DNA from: Globomyces pollinis-pini
Taxonomy: Eukaryota > Chytridiomycota > Chytridiomycetes > Rhizophydiales > Globomycetaceae
Length of the DNA stretch: 52,214 bases
NCBI GenBank assembly: GCA_025399215.1
Contig: MU621160.1
Location: forward strand, 16,576 to 68,789
Reading direction: 5' to 3'
The position numbers and the translations under genes were made by a program. The notes below the pieces were generated by a model. It was not told the origin of the DNA. It made no database searches and saw only the letters and a program-made list of their open reading frames with translations. Every line of letters begins with the position of its first letter. The stretch's first letter is position 1. Shown here one piece after another: positions 3,126-46,195 of the stretch.

Positions 3126-5871
3126 CTATAACGAGAATCGTTTGATACAATCCTGTCTTGGTTCTTTAAGATGGTTTGCTGCTCCTTGAAATGGAACAGC
3201 CCAAGCATCACGTTTGGTTAAGAATGGTGTACCAGCCCATTTGTTTAACGTTGCAGAAACACTAGAATGTTCTAAATATCTTCCCTTTACTCCAGATCGG
3301 AATATCTTTCCTTTAGGGACCCAAGGTGATATCAATAAAGTAGGAACGCGAACACCCAAACGATCAAACTTGAAATCGCCTGAGGCTGGTTTGACTTGAG
3401 AGTTGTCTGGAATAGGTATATTCTCTGGTGGAGCTACATGGTCATAAAACCCACCATGTTCATCAAACGTGATAAGAAATAAGGTTTGATTCCATTGTGG
3501 AGAAGCTCGTATAGTTTCGTATACGTCTTTCACAAATAATTCTCCTTGATGGATGCTATTTGGTGGATGATAATCCTAGAAGTTAGTTTTATAGAATTGG
3601 TTTACATTCTTGTTGAAATCTGGATCAATGTAGGTGAATTGAGGTAAATCACCATTTCGTGCATCAATCTTAAATTGTGGGAAAGATTTAATTTTTTCCA
3701 AATTTTTTGGGTCTCTCAATCCGCTATACAATAGGGTTGATGGAGTAATGGCATCGAAATAGGCTTTCCAGGTTTTACCATTTTCCTGAAGGTTCTCGAA
3801 ATTGGTCTTACAATCAACGGGTATAATTGGAACATCATTGTTTTTGGTAATGCCTTTTGATGTAGCACAATGCAAGAAATGACGATTTGGTTGGGTAGGT
3901 CCGGGGACGGATGCATACCTAAATACATTAGTAAATAGAAATAGATACCAGTCATCAACTATAGCAAACTCTTTTGCCAATGCATAAGTAATTGGAAGTG
4001 TTCCTGGTCCATGGTATCCCATTTCTTCAGATAGGCCTTCATCAATTGGTACTTTCAAGGTTTTAGAAACATCTTCGGCATTGGATGCAAATCCACTCAT
4101 CGTTGGCTTTAATCCAGCAGTTGGACCCTGTTTGCCATAAATCTGTTCGGTGACCTCCCACAGTTCATGCCCAGGATCGAACTTGGAGCTATCGCGTGTA
4201 TTAGGGTGAACCTTGATTGATGTTCCATTTCTTAAAACATTTGATTCATTTCCAGTCAAACCATTCACGTGTGGATTAATGCCATCTAATTTCATTCGGC
4301 CAAACATGTTATCAAATGATCGGTTTTCTAGAAATTAATTATGACAGTTTACCTAACATCAAGACAACAATATTTTTGATAGCAGGATTGACTGGATCGG
4401 TGTCTTTCAATTCAATCACAGGTGGAAGAGTATCTACGGGGGTACTAGTGGGAGTAGCAGTGGTGGTGGGAGTAGGTCGATCAAAGACAGTACATTTATC
4501 ACAGAAAGGACAACTAATTGGAGCCCCAAAAGTTTTCAAAGTGTATTTCTTGCTCGTAACCAAACTGATCACTTCAAAGTTAATATCTGTCTTTCGGCTT
4601 AAACTGGTTTTCATTTGGTTAAACACTTTACAATCGGAAGATTGACCAGATTGAATAGTTGCTACCAACGCATTATCAAACTCCAAGTTTAATTGAAATT
4701 TAAGGACAATGAAGACAGCAAACTTGAAACGAAACATTGGTATTAAGTGAGCTTCGACATTTGTGTTTATATCTTCTGTACCTCTGGACTTTACATTTGA
4801 TGTGACAATTAAGTCAGTGTTTGTGGTGACAACAGGTTTTGCGAAAAGCCCATCATTGGATTTCACGGAATATTCAAAGGGATATTTCAAATTGTATGCC
4901 AAATCTAAATCAGTTTTGGTATCAGCTTTGTATGCCACTCCACTGTCTACATCAAAAGAAGGAGTAAAGGAAAAAATTGCTGGAACAATAACAGGTAAGA
5001 GTGGAATGGAAGCTAGCGTTTTACGAACATGCATATCTTTATCGATCTCTTCCATAGTATAAGTTACATTCATATTTCCATTCAAGCTTCCAAACAAAGC
5101 AACTTTATATGCTTTTACTCCGAAAATATTTCCATGAATTTCAAGCTTGACTGTTGCTTCACCGTGGGTATAGCAGTCTCCACAGTCAATGTTCATACGT
5201 GGTCCATTGGCTAAATTGATTTTAGGATTGATTACTCGCTTGTTCACTGTATCGTAGTTCACACCTAAGCTATATGCATATTCTCTTTCTAACCTTTTTT
5301 GAATTGAAGGAGAAGCGTTTGTCAAATCAAGGTTAAAATCTTCCACCACATCACTTGTCTTCAAGGCAGTTGCTTTAGCTTCAAGTGTGGATCCGTTCAA
5401 AGATACTTCCAAGACCTTCAAGACAGTAACTTCATTCTTTCCATTACAATTCCACTCATTTCCAACCATAAGTGCAAAACCAGCGACAGTGGATCTTGAC
5501 CATTCATCGAATGCGAGTTTTGCGTTTACTTCGCCATCAAATGAAAGGGTAGCGTGACTTTCATCACATTTGATGTTGGTGATTTGAGGAAAATTGGCCA
5601 CGTTTAAGGTTGGTATTTTGGTATTTATCAACATGTGTGCATTCACATTATTTTGCTTCGAATTTACTTCAAAATTAGCTTTAATTTGTGATAAAGGTGA
5701 ATATCCCTTTCTAACTGCTGGTACTGGATACATATATGTGGGGTTGATGGGAGGTGTTTGTATTAACGCCTTTGGTTTTTCGATACTATCCACGTGTTCG
5801 ACAGCACATTTGTCTGCCACCACTAAAAGTGGTAGCAATAAGCAAATAACTCTTATAATTTCTATGTTCAT
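3126..5871 (-). CDS. Secreted phosphoesterase (phospholipase C / acid phosphatase-like) with DUF7029/DUF7223-type N-terminal half, copy 2
   Basis: Complete 886-residue paralogue of the gene at 1-2613. Exons 5871-4353, 4327-3949, 3918-3606 and 3575-3126 (introns 25, 30 and 30 nt). Signal peptide at the start (RVICLLLPLLVVA), a beta-rich ectodomain with paired cysteines (CGDCYTHG, CPFCDKC), a Thr/Pro/Ser linker, then the phosphoesterase domain: ENRSFD near residue 510, [30 protein letters not shown] and a C-terminal region with [11 protein letters not shown]. The protein ends at TAG 3126-3128. The second intron has a length divisible by three and no stop, so retention would add ten residues without breaking the frame. 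Tandem position and high identity to the left copy indicate local duplication. A TATATAA-like sequence lies about 25 nt upstream of the ATG on the coding strand, a weak promoter hint. Confidence 0.88.
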
Positions 5872-13055: not shown

Positions 13056-13416
13056 ATTATCCCCTGTAGCGAGGCTTATGAGGCGTTGACGTGATTGTTG
13101 ATCAATTTAAAAAAGGGAGATAAAATCGGTATAGATCAGCATTCATCTCAAGTATTCAAGTATGGGCAATGGAAGAGGATTCAAGACATAGAAACATGTG
13201 GATTTTGATGCGAAATGCTGTAACGTTTTGGTAATACAAATTCGAATCACCGTAGGTTTTAAGCTAGCCGATCTTTGATATCACTACCAGTAAAGCAGCC
13301 AATGGTAAACACTATTGGTAGTTATTAATGTTTAGGAAATCCATCAAACCTGAACTACTGTGACGAAACAAGCCTTTAAGGAATCCGCCTTCGGGATGAA
13401 CACGCAAGTCGTGTTC

Positions 13417-13672
13417 GTGGAGACTGCTTCGGTACCTCGGGCTTTAGTGGATACTGCCCCGTAGAGCGGCGCGTTTGTGGAGACTACTTGGGACCTAGTC
13501 CTTTGTAGATACTGCCCCAGAGAGTAGTGCGTGCTTTGTGGAGACTGCTTGGGACCTTGTCCTTTTAGTAGATACTGCCTCTTCGGGGATAGGCGCATTT
13601 GTGGAGACTGCTTGGGATCTAGTCCTTTAAGCGGACACTGCCTCAGGGATAGACGCGTTTGCGGATACTTGT
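13417..13672. repeat. GC-rich tandem repeat, about 60-nt unit, four copies plus a partial
   Basis: Units start with gtggagactgctt or a close variant at 13417, 13477, 13538 and 13601, with a degenerate fifth start at 13661; lengths are 60, 61, 63 and 60 nt. Each unit contains a second related half (gtggatactgcc-like), so the original period was perhaps 30 nt. Base composition is much richer in G and C than the surroundings. Unit lengths not divisible by three argue against a protein repeat, although one strand is open across it. Confidence 0.85.
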
Positions 13673-14955: not shown

Positions 14956-17686
14956 TTACCGATACAATTGAAGATCGGAATACTTGAAGGTAGAAGCACA
15001 GAAGACACACGTATTCAATTGCATCAACAAAAAAGTGATGGGTTGAGTTTCAAAGACCTGATTTTGAAACCATCGATACTTTAATCCACAATCACTACAT
15101 GTTTTAATAACAGGTGTATCAATCAATAATAGGGATAATGGACATTGTTCTAGGGTTAGTGTCATGGTAAGTTACTCCAGGTGTGATGATGGATACATTG
15201 ATGGGGTGATTGATTCGTGATGGGTTCGTTACAGATTGCACATGGTTGTATGAAATTGGATTCGATAATGATTTTCATGTTGTTAATGGTTTGATTAGAT
15301 AAACAAGGTAAGAGTTTGTCTACCAACTCTACCACATCAATATTCTCACTTTTCCACATACAGGCCAAAATATATTCATTATTTCCTACAAATGAGATTT
15401 CAATAAAAAAACCATCTAAAGTTTGATTGGATAAATTGAGAGATTGGTATTGTGCAAAAAGTTTGGTTAAAATGCCTCGCCAATAGAATTCCCGGATAGC
15501 TTGTTGATGTTGGGTCAACACATCAACCTGATCTATCATTTCATCTTGGTTCCAATGCGGTTGTGTGACGGCATATATGTATGTGATGTATTGTAAGCAT
15601 CGGATCGGTATGGGTGGATTCGTCACATCTACAAATTCCATCCTACTATTTAATAATACTAGCATGTACAAATGTTTGTTCATTTGGTAAAATCCTAATA
15701 ATAATTCATTGTAGCGTGCTAATTGTTGATTGATGGTATATGATTTTTGTTGTAAATCATACAATAGTAATTCCCAGAATACTTTACGAGGCGCCGACTG
15801 GAAATCTATAATAAGATCAAATTTGGTTACTAGACGGGTTGGTTAAATACGTTTTGAGAACGCAAAGTGTGTCGACGGGATGGTTAATCGGTCTAATACT
15901 GATGTTTGTTTTAATTTGGTGATCTGTCAAGTATGCCATATAAATGAATGATGTAAGTCTAGACTGGTCAGCGAATATCTTGAATATGGTCGTGATAATA
16001 TTTAATGATTAAGGTAGTTCAGAGGTTAAGGTATGTTTTAGCATATCATAGAGATAGTAGCTTAGGGTGTTTAACATCAAACGAATGAACGATATATATA
16101 CCTGTATGAAATGAAATCATAAAGGCCATGTGGACTAGCCAACACACCGTAAACTTGAAACTCTTCTTTATCCGGCCCAAAACCATCTATATCTCCATTA
16201 ACATCTTCATCCTCATCCTGTGAATCATTATCATTATCAGCACCATCTGATAAAAACGATCGTAATGCAGCCGTCTCATCCGAAACTAGTGAGATAGACA
16301 CTGGTTGTGTGGTGTACGATAAATTCAACTGTATACCGTTGGCGGTGTATATCCTGATGTGGTTTTTGTTGTACCAAATGCCATCTAGATGGTTATAGTT
16401 GATTAGTGTACGTGTAATGGTTCCAAATGGAGCGACGTAACAATCTGTCGTGGATTGGCTTCCGATAGCTGTGATAAACAATCTGTTAGATTTGGCATAT
16501 GCGACTACAATCTAATATTAGATGTTTGGGTTAGATTACCGAAGAGGACTATGGAGTTAAAGTTGAAGCGATTACAGTATCCGGCTAGAGTATTATTTTT
16601 TAAAAAAAAAACCTTGTTCTATATTATCAATGGTGAATCGATTACTGAATCCTATTGTTATTGTTGAACTGAATACTATGTTTATCTAAAACATTATGAA
16701 TGATAGTATTACTTGATCCTAAGAATTATCTACATTATATAATTACTGCATTAGTCTATAATGTGATTAATATTATTATTATTACTGCATTAGTCTATAA
16801 TGATATTAGTATTATATAATTACTGAATTAGTCTATAATGTGATTTAGCAATAGTAAAATTACGTATTCCTAAAAATGAGATGACATTGTTTTACAAAAT
16901 CTTTAAAGGAGAGAAAAGAAACAGGGGTATTATCGGCAAGAGCTAAATCATGGAGTTTCAAGACGGATAAATCACCATTTAGGTTGTATATTTTACAAAG
17001 AGAGACAGTTCCATCAGCAAATCCAGTTAAAATATAAGCAAACTGAATATTATTTTGATCCAGTTGCCAATCACTCCAAAGAATATTTGTTAACCAAGCA
17101 TTATGTAAATGAATTGATAATTTTTGAGAAATCATTTCCATGGATTGATAACTATGGGTTTAAGTATAATTGAATACCTGAGGATGACGAGATGGCCTGA
17201 AGTAGAACCGATAGCTAGTAAGGTAGATAAGAAAGGTAAGGTTGAATGATTTGACCAACAACAAGATTTCAGAGTATTTTGAGGTAGGGAAATGAAAGGT
17301 TGTAAATCACAGTTCTAAGAATGAGTAATATGTATTACTGTAGACCATTTATCGATCTCAGGATTAGCTGGTGAATTGAATAAATAGATACGATTATGAG
17401 TTGATATGATAGCCAACACGTCCCAGATGGTACACCAATGAGAGTAACGAGGAGCTTCTTGAGCTACGATATGATGATCAATATTCCAAGGATGCTTTGA
17501 AATTAATTTTTGAGAAGGTAGATTAGCGAGAGAAGAATTGATAGCTATAGAATTTAAAGAAGGGGAGATGATGTTAATATTTAGGGAAGAAATGGTAGCT
17601 AAACGTAAAGAATTAGACCAATTATTTGGTAATGAATGAAAAGCTTGAGGTTTTTTAGGTATTGAAATGGTATGATTGAAATCCAT
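14956..17686 (-). CDS. GTF3C4: TFIIIC 90-kDa subunit-like protein (WD40 propeller plus C-terminal zinc finger)
   Basis: Exons as read: 17686-17339, 17314-17178, 17151-16896, 16869-16864, [optional micro-exons 16832-16824, 16794-16786, 16755-16747, 16718-16713], 16685-16613, 16584-16540, 16504-16102, 15958-15831, 15805-15176, 15149-14956; 739-750 residues. The N-terminal half has propeller features (HWCTIWDVLAIISTHNRIYLF, CCWSNHS...LLAIGSTSGHLVIL, ILTGFADGTV) and the SPHGL motif of the TFIIIC90 family. The C-terminal 100 residues carry CAICNEP, HTWKQCPLSL and CSDCGLKY, the family's zinc finger (C..C - H.W.RC - C..C). Known role: part of the TFIIIC factor that recruits Pol III to tRNA genes. 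Two parts are uncertain: the repeat-expanded intron zone at 16712-16863 and a 143-nt intron at 15959-16101. The ATG at 17686 was preferred to an upstream TTG. Confidence 0.78.
16719..16863 (-). repeat. Intron-shaped tandem repeat inside the TFIIIC90 gene
   Basis: On the coding strand four consecutive segments each begin gtaat and end tag, at 16863-16833, 16823-16795, 16785-16756 and 16746-16719 (31, 29, 30 and 28 nt), separated by a 9-nt word actaatgca (once actaattca). Period is 38-39 nt. Every junction is in phase 0, so any number of the 9-nt words could be kept as Thr-Asn-Ala micro-exons or the whole zone could be one long intron. Confidence 0.8.
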
Positions 17687-23666: not shown

Positions 23667-24849
23667 CTACAACTTTTCCAAGAACTTCAGACATACTTTT
23701 CCGAAATCACCAGTTGTTAGATTTTGTGCGTCAGCCCATGAATCTATACGTTAGCAAACATAAAAATCTATTTACCATCTGCTATTTGACTGACTAAAAT
23801 AACTTGACCAGGTTCTATCGACAATTCATCAGGTAATTTAGCATCATACTTATAGATGACTTTAAACTGACCATTGTTTTGCTTATTTTTACTAGTAATG
23901 ATACCAGTTCGAACAGGAACAAAAGCAGGAACTTGTCGTGCTTGTTTTCTTGCACGTCGAATTGGTTGAACTATCGCAAATGCTAGCACTCCTACAATTA
24001 CAACTACTATAGCTGCTGCACCCATCACAAATGTGGGTGAGGAGAAGAATGAGTTTTGCTGATCGGCAGATGATTCTGAAGTTCCAACAGCTTGATACAT
24101 CATCACAACTCTTTGAAGCGCGGATAGCTCCCGTCTAGGTTGACCTCCTTCAACAGCTAATTTAGAAACTGACATTCTGGAGCAACATGGAGCAGTAGGA
24201 TATTTAGCACAATATAGGTTGGCTACTTTCTCATTTCCACTAAAACCTAACAATAAATACTTGAATTCCAATTACCACATGATTTCTGATCACTATCAAT
24301 TCCATTTAGGCATTCGGATTTATGATTAAACATTATAGCCTGGCTAATCTTTTTACATGAATCAGCACCTTTGACTGCATAACTTCTTCTAGTTTGTGTT
24401 ATTGAATCCGTTGTTTTAGGGCATTGCTGTTCATCTTTCATTAACTGGTTTAAAGCAGCTCCATATTCGTCACAGACAGTATCACATAATTTGGGTATGG
24501 AATTTGGGGGTGAATTATTACAAGAACTTGATAATACAAAAATGTCAGTTAAACACACATAAGATCTGTAATACTGAATTAAATCACCAGTATACTTTGA
24601 ACATTGTGCCCAATTTTTCCATAATTCTGCTTGTTTCTGACCACCTGAAGTGATATCGATGACCAATTGATCCCAAGTTTGTAAATTAAATTGAGATTTA
24701 TCTTGTATTCCATAAGCATCTGCTAAACGATTTAAATCAATTGATAAATCGATTTGATTCCAAGGAGAACATGATTTTGAAGATTTAATTGAAATACAAT
24801 TATTTGAAGTGGATTGAACAGCCAGTAATTGTAACAATATTGTAAACAT
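23667..24849 (-). CDS. Single-pass membrane protein: Cys-rich ectodomain, TM, cytoplasmic SH3 (family member C)
   Basis: Exons 24849-24276, 24246-23776 and 23743-23667, introns 29 and 32 nt, 373 residues. Signal peptide (MFTILLQLLAVQS), an ectodomain of about 230 residues with regularly placed cysteines (NNCISIKSSKSCSPW, AQCSKYTGDLIQYYRSYVC, CDTVCDEYG, CPKT, CGFSGNEKVANLYC...CC), a Ser-rich stalk, a TM of about 23 residues near 275 (MGAAAIVVVIVGVLAFAIV), a basic stop-transfer RRARKQ and a C-terminal SH3 domain (FKVIYKYDAKLPDELSIEPG, ISQ/DSWADAQN, GKVCLKFLE). An intron splits the SH3 at the conserved DG/W position. Architecture recalls yeast Fus1-type membrane SH3 proteins; ligand unknown. Confidence 0.85.
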
Positions 24850-25169: not shown

Positions 25170-26381
25170 TCACTTATCATCAAGTCTTTCCATAAAAGTA
25201 ATTGAAGCCATGCCTACTTTCCCACTACGTACATTCTGCCCTCGACCCCATCCATCATCATTTAGAATATCAAAAATGACAATATCATCCACTTCCAAAT
25301 CTAATTCATCAGGAAGTTCTGCTCGATATTCAAATTTAACACGGCATCGTATTCCTTTACTTACTTGCTGAATAGAAGGCGGTGTTAATCTTCCACTAGT
25401 GGATTTGTCTAGACTGGTGGTAGAAATGTTTGTAAGTGGAGGAGGAACGTATCCATGTTTCTTTTGACGGTTTACAGTAACATATCCCGCAGCTCCAACA
25501 GCGGCTAATCCCAATGATGCAAGTCCACCAATAAATACTGGTGATCCAAAGAAAGTACCGCCTCCGTCACTAGAACCCGAATTTGACGATTCTGACCCTT
25601 GAACTGCTTCCCACATCATCACAGCTCTTTGAATTGGTGATAATGATGACCTTTGATTCGATCCTTGCGATTTTGCTACATGCGAACAACAAGCTGCATT
25701 TGGGAAATTCTGACAATATGCTTGTGCAATAGTAGCGTTACCTCCGAAACCTATGAAAATAAGTATAAATCATGAAAACACTTTACCACATGATTCCTGG
25801 TCTGATTTAATTCCTGGTACACATTGTTCCTTCAAGTTGAAATATGATGTTTGTGATAATTTTTGACATGAATCGGCAGCTCGTAATGCAAAAGATCTTC
25901 GCTTTTCAACAGCAGCAAGTATTTTTTGATCTTTGACAGTTGGACAATCAGCATTATTATTCATCAAAGTAGTTAAAGCACCACCATAGTTGGTGCAAGC
26001 TTCAGAACATAATGGAGTCATTTGAACTTTACCAACATTACAACGAGCTGATAAAACAAATATATCCGTTAAACAAACATAAGAGCGATAATATTGAATC
26101 AATTCTCCATTATATCCTGAACATTGTGCCCAATCTTTCCACATTAAAGCTTGAGTTTGACCACCCGATGTAGTATCGATGACAGCCTTTTCCCAAGCAG
26201 CAGCATCCAGTTTATCTGAGTCTTTTAAACCATAAGCTTGTGCAAGTTTTGTAGAATCGATGTATAAATCATTACCAGACCAAGGGGAACAAGCATTAGT
26301 TGATTTAATAGACTGACATCCATCAGGAACTTGCGCTATAACTAATGAAAGAGTAGCAATAAAAGTAGTAGCTAACAACAT
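25170..26381 (-). CDS. Single-pass membrane protein: Cys-rich ectodomain, TM, cytoplasmic SH3 (family member D)
   Basis: Two exons (26381-25787, 25750-25170; intron 36 nt), 391 residues. The ATG at 26381 gives a good signal peptide (MLLATTFIATLSLVIAQ); an upstream frame extension begins with TTG and was not used. Ectodomain motifs parallel member C (CQSIKSTNACSPW, AQCSGYNGELIQYYRSYVC, YVCLTDIFVLSARCN, CSEACTNYGGAL, CGFGGNATIAQAYC...CC). Gly-rich TM near residue 250 (GGLASLGLAAVGAAGYV), Pro-rich linker (YVPPPLT), then an SH3 of about 60 residues (CRVKFEYRAELPDELDLEVDD, DDGWGRGQN, GKVGMASITFME). No intron in the SH3, unlike member C. Confidence 0.87.
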
Positions 26382-26844
26382 AAAGTTCAAAGAAAGTTCA
26401 AGGCTGGTTTATCAAACAATCAACTGCGCCGAATAAAAACTGCAAACGGTCTGAGTTACGTCAGTCTTTGAGTTTGCATGTCCCTTGTAAAGTAGTAATT
26501 ACTAGTACTATTATCAATAGTGTAACTACATATCATCAAAGGTGTAACGAAATACTAGTAGTGAATCACTATACCATCACTTTTAGTGATGTTCTGTTTT
26601 TTATTAAATGTTTGTAAAATAAACCATAATGAATATCTGATTGATTTAAAGTATAGACAATAGTGTAATAATTAATTATTGAATGATGGTCTAACTTATT
26701 CCTTTCATTTAATTACTGGTTGTACATTCATTCACTGAATGATAGTGAGTATGATTATCGTTTCTAAAGAATTCTTTGGTAGTTGTTTAATTCATAGTAA
26801 AGTCATTAGTTTATCAACACTTGAAGTTTTCCAATTTACATCAA
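26382..26844. other. Divergent promoter region, family member D / RP2
   Basis: 463 nt without coding sequence. A 7-bp perfect inverted repeat (catcact, 3-nt loop, agtgatg) lies at 26575-26591 and several actagta words occur nearby, as in the TFIIIC90/BET interval. Confidence 0.45.
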
Positions 26845-44081: not shown

Positions 44082-45041
44082 TTATTGCTTCAAAAACTCA
44101 TCCAAATCTTCTAGTAATTTGTCAAGATATCGGTCGTCATGAGAAAAGAAATGGTCAGTTCCTTGATACACAATCAATTTACCATGTTTGCTTGCTTCAA
44201 GCCAAACATTTTCTGAATCGCGGTGATCTTTCGAACCATTGATGAAGAGAATTCGTCCATCATATTTGGGAAGCGAAATCCTTGGGTTGGAGGCTTTCAG
44301 GATTTCAATGTGCTTTTCTGCTTGATTAAAGAAAAATCCATGACTCAATGCCATTTCTTTTAGTAAAGTGTCAGAAATGTGGCCATTTCCTTTCGCTTGA
44401 GACACCATTCCTTTCAGCATCGACTCAGCACTCATCAATGGAATCACAAGCCCCATACCATATAATCCCAAAGATGCGGCCATTCCTCTTCCTGCACCAA
44501 CACCTTGACCAGCCATAAGAATTGCCGCTGAGGAAAAGACACTGGGGTGGGATCCAAGTAGTTCCATTCCGATATATCCTCCCAAAGAACCCCCAACATA
44601 TATTGGCTTTTTTCCATTGTAGTCCGAAGCATATTCCTTGGTGACACTTAAAATCGTGTTGATGGCAGATTCGAGTGACAATGGAGTGTCCATTAAACTC
44701 CCATGGCCAGGAAGATCCATCAATATGCATCGATACTTGCTGCTTAACTTTCGTGCATGGACTGCAAACATTGTTCTACAACCACCCGCTCCATGCACAA
44801 ATACAATGGATGGACCTTCACCTCGTTCCAATCCAATTACTTCTACCGATTTGGTGTAATCTAATGATGACAGTTTAATAAAACATGATTTGCAAAATGA
44901 TTTAATTTGATTATCAGTTTGATCGTTTGATAATGCATAGTTTATACAATTCGAACAGAAATGCTCTCCACAGCCAGGTTTCTTACATTCATAAAGACTC
45001 TGAGTCCATCCTGCTTTCAGATTGCATGATTTGCAAGACAT
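44082..45041 (-). CDS. FYVE-like zinc finger fused to alpha/beta hydrolase, copy 1
   Basis: Single exon, 319 residues. Residues 3-53 carry paired cysteines (C3, C6, C19, C24, C29, C32, C50, C53) with the FYVE-like core GCGEHFCSNC, but without the basic RHHCR patch that binds phosphoinositide. Residues 75-319 are an alpha/beta hydrolase: oxyanion HGAGG at 83-87, MDLPGHG, nucleophile Ser152 in GGSLGG, Asp272 in INGSKDHRD and His297 in GTDHFFSHDD. So the catalytic triad is complete. Substrate unknown; an esterase or lipase acting at a membrane is a guess. Tandem with a near-identical copy 191 nt away, same strand. Confidence 0.85.
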   Translation of the reverse strand: MSCKSCNLKAGWTQSLYECKKPGCGEHFCSNCINYALSNDQTDNQIKSFCKSCFIKLSSLDYTKSVEVIGLERGEGPSIVFVHGAGGCRTMFAVHARKLSSKYRCILMDLPGHGSLMDTPLSLESAINTILSVTKEYASDYNGKKPIYVGGSLGGYIGMELLGSHPSVFSSAAILMAGQGVGAGRGMAASLGLYGMGLVIPLMSAESMLKGMVSQAKGNGHISDTLLKEMALSHGFFFNQAEKHIEILKASNPRISLPKYDGRILFINGSKDHRDSENVWLEASKHGKLIVYQGTDHFFSHDDRYLDKLLEDLDEFLKQ

Positions 45042-45232: not shown

Positions 45233-46195
45233 TTATGGATTTTTCAAAAACTCATCCAAATCCTGGATTAACTTGTCAAGATATCGGTCGTCATGAGAAA
45301 AGAAATGATCAGTTCCTTCATAAACAATCAATTTACCATGTTTGCTTGATTCAAGCCAAACTTTTTCAGAATCGCGGTGATCTTTGGAACCATTGATGAA
45401 GAGAATTGGCCCTTCGTATTTGGGTAAAGAAGCTCTTGGGTTAGAGTGTTTGAGAATTTCAATATGCTTTCCCACTTGATTGAAGAAATATCCATGGCTC
45501 AACACCATTTCTTTTAGTACTGCATCAGATATGTGTCCATTTCCTTTTGCCTGAGAGTTCATACCTTTGAGCATTGCCTCTGCGCTAAGCGATGGAAACA
45601 AACTTCCCATAACAAACAATCCCAAAGATGCAGTCATTCCTCTTCCTGTGCCCACATCTTGTCCAGCCATAAGAATTGCAGCTTTGGAAAACACATCAGG
45701 GTGGGATCCAAGTAGTTCCATCCCGATATAACCCCCTAAAGATGCCCCAACATATATTGGCTTTTTTCCATTGTAGTCTGAAGCATATTCCTTGGTGACA
45801 CTTAAAATCGTGCTGATGGCAGATTCGAGTGACAATGGAGTGTCCATCAAACTGCCATGACCAGGGAGATCCATCAATATGCATCGATACTTACTGCTTA
45901 GCTTTCGTGCATGGATTGAAAACATTGTTCTACAACCACCCGCTCCATGGACAAACACGACAGATGGTCCTTTACCTCGTTCCAAGCCAATTACTTCTAC
46001 CGATTTGGTGTAATCCAACGATGATAATCGAATAAAGCATGATTTGCAAAATGATTTTATATGATTATCAGTCTGATCGTTTGATAAAGCATAGTTTAAA
46101 CAATTCGAACAGAAACGCTCTCCACAACCAGGCTTCTTGCATTCAAACAGACTCTGAGTCCATCCTGCTTTCAGATTGCATGATTTGCAAGACAT
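45233..46195 (-). CDS. FYVE-like zinc finger fused to alpha/beta hydrolase, copy 2
   Basis: Single exon, 320 residues; same cysteine pattern and hydrolase as the copy at 44082-45041 and most likely its duplicate, differing in scattered residues (CGERFCSNC for CGEHFCSNC; nucleophile elbow GASLGG for GGSLGG). Triad residues are all kept. Divergence is mostly in the lid-like region around residues 180-240 (GRGMTASLGLFVMGSLFPSLSAE). The N-terminal 30 residues are almost identical, so the finger is under constraint or the duplication recent or recently converted. Confidence 0.85.
   Translation of the reverse strand: MSCKSCNLKAGWTQSLFECKKPGCGERFCSNCLNYALSNDQTDNHIKSFCKSCFIRLSSLDYTKSVEVIGLERGKGPSVVFVHGAGGCRTMFSIHARKLSSKYRCILMDLPGHGSLMDTPLSLESAISTILSVTKEYASDYNGKKPIYVGASLGGYIGMELLGSHPDVFSKAAILMAGQDVGTGRGMTASLGLFVMGSLFPSLSAEAMLKGMNSQAKGNGHISDAVLKEMVLSHGYFFNQVGKHIEILKHSNPRASLPKYEGPILFINGSKDHRDSEKVWLESSKHGKLIVYEGTDHFFSHDDRYLDKLIQDLDEFLKNP

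Follow-up and report, generated by a model that had tools for sequence, protein, structure and literature searches.

A candidate tandem array of ultra-short introns and in-frame micro-exons in a TFIIIC90-type gene of the chytrid Globomyces pollinis-pini

The window analyzed here, a stretch of 52,214 nucleotides on contig C71 of the 18.5-Mb, 459-contig assembly of Globomyces pollinis-pini (a chytrid of the Rhizophydiales), carries on its minus strand a TFIIIC90-type gene (15000-17686), recognized by a zf-TFIIIC domain and by the public model P0001 (BC833DRAFT_404525). Its start codon lies at 17686, and the 3' part and end of our model are less certain. A hand-joined model of 633 amino acids matched zf-TFIIIC (PF12660) at 1.1e-7, with 32.2 bits against a cut-off of 23, revealing the C-terminal zinc finger that marks a TFIIIC90-type subunit. 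Because this match exceeds the Pfam cut-off, the C-terminal domain supports the name TFIIIC90 under which the gene was originally predicted. TFIIIC90-type subunits also feature an N-terminal beta-propeller; the N-terminal part of this protein scored 14.1 bits for the propeller family PF23726, below its cut-off of 30, and no beta-propeller domain match appeared at 1e-3. A single-sequence structure prediction of P0001 gave a pLDDT of 30.5, too low to use, and the sole protein homologue retrieved was P0001 itself, from G. pollinis-pini, leaving none usable to check the loop described below.

The public model was recovered exactly on the DNA. Within the region of interest it uses exons of 9, 6, 9, and 9 nt, merges several units into longer introns (e.g., 101 and 67 nt, although other splits may yield the same protein), and reads through two of the introns that we describe. 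Further downstream it goes out of frame and ends before the zf-TFIIIC domain, which lies beyond its early end, within 15000-16101 on the minus strand; hence, P0001 may not be fully transcript-based. At 16385-16411 on the same strand, a 27-nt stop-free GT..AG stretch, a multiple of three in length, is spliced in P0001 and kept by our parser. An intron of 143 nt (16101-15959) appears in P0001 and in our parse with a 600-nt intron ceiling, and is considered uncertain.

Elsewhere in the window, several neighboring frames resemble one another. Two adjacent and very similar minus-strand frames with a cysteine-rich N-terminus (44082-45041 and 45233-46195) appear by eye to be tandem duplicates, the former matching alpha/beta hydrolase families. 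The minus-strand frames at 1102-2613 and 4339-5871, the latter matching DUF7029/DUF7223, are similar by eye, each being followed by a similar shorter frame, and at 23768-24849 and 25170-26390 (minus) lie two adjoining pairs of similar frames that, as judged by eye, probably encode related membrane proteins ending in an SH3-like part. At 13410-13669, a 63-nt repeat in about four tandem copies overlaps an open reading frame. On another contig (C437:5651-5785), a tandem 36-nt repeat containing TTAGGG is perhaps subtelomeric.

Between 16895 and 16512 on the minus strand, within about 380 bases, our gene-finder parses placed 11 GT..AG introns in succession, each 25-31 nt long (26, 31, 29, 30, 28, 27, 25, 27, 28, 27, and 28 nt in order), separated by ten micro-exons of 6, 9, 9, 9, 6, 9, 6, 6, 9, and 9 nt that encode EY-TNS-TNA-TNA-DQ-INI-DS-NK-PDT-SSS. 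Intron 1 (16870-16895; score 7.25, percentile 0.66, percentiles being ranks among 530 other parsed introns) shares its donor with P0001 and precedes micro-exon 1, GAATAC (EY, 16864-16869). Intron 2 (16833-16863; 5.37, 0.33) leads to micro-exon 2, ACTAATTCA (TNS, 16824-16832), identified by sequence reading as well as parsing, and intron 3 (16795-16823; 7.05, 0.62) leads to micro-exon 3, ACTAATGCA (TNA, 16786-16794). The same word recurs after intron 4 (16756-16785; 6.57, 0.53) as micro-exon 4, ACTAATGCA (TNA, 16747-16755), also seen by sequence reading and in the parse; P0001 has a single TNA exon, which is either micro-exon 3 or 4. Following intron 5 (16719-16746; 6.21, 0.46), micro-exon 5, GATCAA (DQ, 16713-16718), is identical in P0001, as is intron 6 (16686-16712; 7.04, 0.62), and P0001 continues reading from micro-exon 6, ATAAACATA (INI, 16677-16685). 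The weakest member is intron 7 (16652-16676; 1.53, 0.04), followed by micro-exon 7, GATTCA (DS, 16646-16651), by intron 8 (16619-16645; 7.56, 0.71), and by micro-exon 8, AACAAG (NK, 16613-16618), both micro-exons being supported by sequence reading and parsing; introns 7 and 8 are those read through in P0001. Intron 9, with the odd donor GTTTTT (16585-16612; 6.27, 0.49), and intron 10 (16549-16575; 6.62, 0.54) are identical in P0001, which reads micro-exon 9, CCGGATACT (PDT, 16576-16584), and micro-exon 10, TCCTCTTCG (SSS, 16540-16548), in another phase. Intron 11 (16512-16539; 4.76) has an alternative acceptor ending at 16505, which yields a 35-nt form with a score of 5.54 and is the one used in P0001. 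The original prediction had described only three of these micro-exons, which stand, and the array proved longer than it had proposed.

Phase 0 applies to all 11 array introns and, elsewhere, to 255 of 632. The earlier statement that every junction is in phase 0 holds once the 26-nt intron at 16895-16870 is also removed; otherwise the reading goes out of frame and meets stops. The accompanying claim that skipping units leaves the frame intact was borne out for every subset of micro-exons (1024 of 1024 combinations).

These parses were obtained with a gene finder that was self-trained on about 250 kb of the Globomyces genome and had no rule for micro-exons and no exon-length prior except a constant cost per intron. 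Intron seeds between coding stretches numbered none under strict thresholds and 181 under looser ones, with a peak at 24-32 nt, and the first model used the 91 of these that measured 23-36 nt and had usual acceptors. Three rounds of retraining, for which the window was supplemented with twenty 10-kb stretches, resulted in 107 genes and 543 introns, with an intron ceiling of 80 nt. The training introns, each with both neighboring exons of at least 40 nt, numbered 428 (median 29 nt), of which 423 measured 23-38 nt and the rest 46, 64, 64, 69, and 76 nt; no array intron was among them or among the 91 seeds. An enlarged sample comprised 26 loci including the window, with 135 genes and 645 introns.

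Unprompted, the first, cruder model placed 10 introns at the array, 9 of them identical to those described above, and an unforced parse by the retrained model recovered all ten micro-exons. Forcing the 391 nt from FLSFKDF to VAYAKSNRLF to be read in frame gave 11 phase-0 introns and ten micro-exons with a score of 16.3. Dinucleotide shuffles of these 391 nt were parsable in 333 of 400 cases, with a mean score of -28.1, a best score of -2.6, and a maximum of 8 introns and 4 micro-exons, none reaching the real score. Among intergenic 391-mers, 369 of 400 were parsable, with maxima of 7 introns and 4 micro-exons, and 7 reached the real score, these pieces perhaps being unrecognised coding sequence. 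The observation is confirmed as real and exceeds chance under in-frame parsing, with the qualification that near-repeats among the array units make the 11 introns less than fully independent as evidence. Making introns costlier (1/300, 1/500, and 1/1000) left 10, 10, and 9 introns, intron 7 being dropped at the first two costs and then intron 8, while the last intron took its 35-nt form. With the end frame left free, the parser likewise chose the 35-nt intron 11 (acceptor 16505) and left the downstream frame.

The array introns resemble those of the rest of the genome. Ten of the 11 fell at percentiles 0.23-0.71 of the 530 other parsed introns, intron 7 being the exception, and all except intron 7 exceeded 3.64, the 99th percentile for the 4442 GT-AG pairs that lie within the predicted coding regions of 60 of the 107 genes. 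Of the 21 single introns that measured 39-80 nt, 11 had good signals. We rejected a strict ceiling on intron length, as 10 of the 21 long single introns measured 63-80 nt with good signals. Under a 600-nt ceiling, 42 of 651 introns exceeded 80 nt and the number of genes fell from 135 to 101, which suggests that many of these long introns probably join neighboring genes.

Exons as short as those of the array also occur elsewhere in this genome, a hint that the pieces of the array are exons. The enlarged sample contained four exons of 6 nt, every one of them in the array, and seven of 9 nt, of which six were in the array. Four patterns searched across the whole genome, a rough survey in which many matches were plainly not introns, gave 6, 32, 21, and 22 matches against 5, 117, 103, and 126 in a backwards control, and therefore no enrichment; 3 of 6, 4 of 32, 2 of 21, and 0 of 22 fell in the array. 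Of six whole-genome matches that appeared real, five gave gene models with a 6- or 9-nt exon (loci L030, L033, L031, L029, and L032, of which three encode PHD, HORMA, and CybS domains), and the sixth, on contig C13, gave no gene model. The 9-nt exon in the PHD finger is required for its domain match (PHD_2, 33 bits with the exon and lost without it), the 6-nt exon in the HORMA domain raised the score from 189.7 to 202.4 bits, and the 9-nt exon in CybS changed it little (120.3 with and 117.5 without). Matches on C177 and C277, considered as shared 9-nt exons, were rejected because they proved to be coding sequence, named by eye as ABC transporter, with one intron there.

The parses also contained abutting introns, in which AG meets GT with an inner exon of 0 nt. 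There were 17 such junctions in 645 parsed introns, and inner exons of 1-3 nt never occurred. Four abutting introns stand in a row at L007:2529-2652, in a gene that we take to carry Sen1-like helicase motifs, and three at L013:6657-6748. Acceptable AG|GT splits arose in about 10% of shuffled interiors, so that about three would be expected among the 17 abutting and 15 single introns of 46-76 nt (binomial 7e-10). The protein does not distinguish between an abutting pair of introns and a single longer intron. Only 3 of 17 neighboring pairs were alike at P <0.05 against shuffles, and mutual duplication was thus not shown for most.

Part of the array bears the marks of recent tandem duplication. 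A tandem-repeat search detected 2.9 copies with a period of 39, and three recognizable copies of a 38-39 nt unit lie at 16738-16776, 16777-16815, and 16815-16853 on the minus strand (100, 90, and 79% when compared with the reference copy). They are composed of GT..AG stretches (31, 29, 30, and 28 nt) and the word ACTAAT(T/G)CA (Thr-Asn-Ser/Ala), joined at CA|GTAAT and TAG|ACT, so that three units, across introns 2-5, carry whole introns along with exon sequence, as expected of intron multiplication. The 38-39 nt tandem unit originally reported, a 28-31-nt GT..AG intron plus a 9-nt word, was thereby recovered in three copies (16738-16853). The mean pair score among introns 2-5 was 7.0, compared with -0.19 (sd 1.49) in matched random sets of genome introns, only 1 of 500 of which reached it, which supports the view that these four introns share ancestry and that an intron-plus-codons unit was probably duplicated in tandem there. 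A segment of 35 nt comes back after 77 nt with a single mismatch (34 of 35 positions identical), whereas 32 of 35 positions match at a lag of 39, a hint that two units were duplicated as a block. The DNA itself shows the repeat, an in-frame parse, agreement with the other introns of this genome, and the shared ancestry of introns 2-5.

Tandem duplication of introns, as originally proposed, stands for introns 2-5, which are more alike than 499 of 500 random sets, whereas the remainder have diverged too far for their origin to be read. The multiplication may, as was also proposed, still be in progress. Introns 1 and 6-11 as a group showed no likeness beyond chance, 177 of 500 matched random sets being as similar, and derivation of the whole array from one unit is accordingly not supported. 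This leaves a substantial chance, somewhat short of even, that most introns arose by separate gains in a low-complexity coding loop and that only units 2-5 were copied, an account that concerns origin alone and is compatible with the splicing that we favor. Several observations weigh against it: all 11 introns share one phase; 8 of 11 start with GTAAT compared with 81 of 428 training introns (binomial 1.6e-4, copied units included); and introns 7 and 8 are weakly like intron 10 (P 0.002 and 0.007, among 55 pairs). Additionally, a 181-base query (16700-16880) matched only itself in the 18.5-Mb assembly with simple repeats skipped, revealing no dispersed source from which separate introns might have come.

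The predicted array peptide of 26 residues, EYTNSTNATNADQINIDSNKPDTSSS, is unusually hydrophilic. Only 2 of 26 residues are strongly hydrophobic, compared with 41% of 312 control residues taken from shuffled parses (binomial 2e-4), and N, T, S, D, and Q make up 69%, compared with 31% in the controls (8e-5), the residue classes having been picked after the peptide was seen. When the TNS/TNA/TNA copies were counted once, 2 of 20 residues were strongly hydrophobic (P 0.003). This composition suggests retention as a protein loop and renders doubtful the earlier notion that the micro-exons are a by-product of intron multiplication.

Removal of the whole region 16895-16512 as a single intron (about 384 nt), its internal GT..AG sites unused and the tandem repeat inside it decayed, would give the protein KDF-IVVAYAK and appears improbable. 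Such an intron would join the two coding stretches in frame without a loop, and longer introns may exist in this genome, given good single ones of up to 80 nt and the possible 143-nt intron in the same gene. However, its log score was -8.0, about 24 log units below the 16.0 obtained with all 11 introns; the parser kept all 11 when introns of up to 600 nt were permitted, 423 of the 428 training introns measured 23-38 nt (under a model ceiling of 80 nt), and the phase-0 units, the codon-multiple spacers, and the polar peptide would be left unexplained. Omitting only micro-exons 2-4 scored 3.1. About as improbable is a mixed structure near P0001, in which one TNA exon, the DQ exon, and the 9-nt exons at 16584 and 16548 would be used, several other units skipped, and 16685-16613 read as one exon. 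This structure is the public annotation, has an open read-through exon, and matches the parser in reading through introns 7 and 8 at very high intron cost, but it scored -5.5 (about 21 log units lower) and loses both the frame and the zf-TFIIIC domain further on.

We therefore regard 11 separately spliced introns with ten micro-exons as the likely best reading of the array, judging from the DNA. More fully, the locus is probably a tandem array of separately spliced tiny introns and ten in-frame micro-exons that has grown in part by unit duplication. Each of the 11 ultra-short spliceosomal introns would be removed singly, and the ten micro-exons of two or three codons would then encode a 26-residue polar loop of the TFIIIC90-type protein. 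Whole units of an intron plus 9 nt were probably duplicated, by slippage or unequal crossing-over, in at least part of the growth of the array, with the latest duplications presumably spanning introns 2-5 and the other units possibly having a similar origin. Two features make such growth possible: with most introns of this genome measuring 23-38 nt, one unit of about 38 nt holds an intron in full, and since the introns are in phase 0 and the exons are whole numbers of codons, each gain or loss of a unit is frame-neutral.

Among the systems compared here, the closest precedent is the set of repeat-expanded introns in CNN00420 of Cryptococcus neoformans, where the mechanism is already known. As that report describes it, the gene contains repeats of about 107 nt with six introns, three of them identical, documented by ESTs and strain variation, and what expanded within a population was a repeat that includes a whole intron (PMC2395259). 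Both cases involve introns multiplied in one gene through a repeat of a whole intron with exon ends; the Globomyces array differs in its 38-39-nt units, its 25-31-nt introns, its 6-9-nt micro-exons, and its eleven introns, and in being known from DNA alone. In the tandem genomic duplication model of Rogers, a new intron arises from an exon piece holding AGGT, and the same source terms the copying of an existing whole intron "multiplication," as in Arabidopsis TOUCH3 (PMC4974935). Tandem duplication provides the splice sites in both, but the Globomyces array appears to have copied an existing intron whole and does not follow the AGGT scheme as outlined there. The micro-exon genes of Schistosoma are described as having short exons in runs, mostly of a length divisible by three, with a shortest exon of 6 bp in the text or 3 in the abstract, introns of about 100-5000 bp, and secreted proteins (PMC10526429). 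Our parse shares the run of short exons, with ten of 6 or 9 nt, and differs from that description in its introns of 25-31 nt, in place of long ones, and in its confinement to one stretch of a transcription-factor subunit. Stwintrons are described as complex, nested fungal intervening sequences removed by several splicing reactions (PMC7138796). The Globomyces region is likewise a complex fungal intervening sequence whose removal would take several reactions, whereas its best parse, among the non-nested readings that were scored, consists of consecutive introns leaving codons between them. Ciliates share tiny introns across the genome (PMC5014332, PMC9505925), and the openings of those abstracts mention no tandem array with micro-exons. 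Unlike introner-like elements, the query 16700-16880, which covers part of the array, has no similar copies at many genome sites, simple repeats being skipped. No array of this kind was recognized among the PubMed Central matches listed, a weak result that mostly excludes the subscription literature.

A broader reading, which we advance as speculative and rather unlikely, is that the array represents a length-variable protein loop built of splice units. Taken with the abutting introns (17 junctions in 645 parsed introns), it would suggest that the multiplication of introns as whole units is a general means of intron gain in this lineage, and one still at work. The units would then act as frame-neutral cassettes, their gain or loss in the DNA and their skipping in the RNA each shifting the loop by two to three residues, with 1024 in-frame isoforms possible. 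The origin of new spliceosomal introns has long been a question, and few cases are both recent and datable. In this fungal gene intron copies, some recognizable and some perhaps diverged, adjoin one another in one short stretch, so that turnover of units could be sought between strains. Exon definition is usually thought to need exons far longer than 6 nt. If spliced as parsed, the array would also provide a test of how the spliceosome pairs its sites when introns are shorter than 32 nt and exons measure 6 nt.
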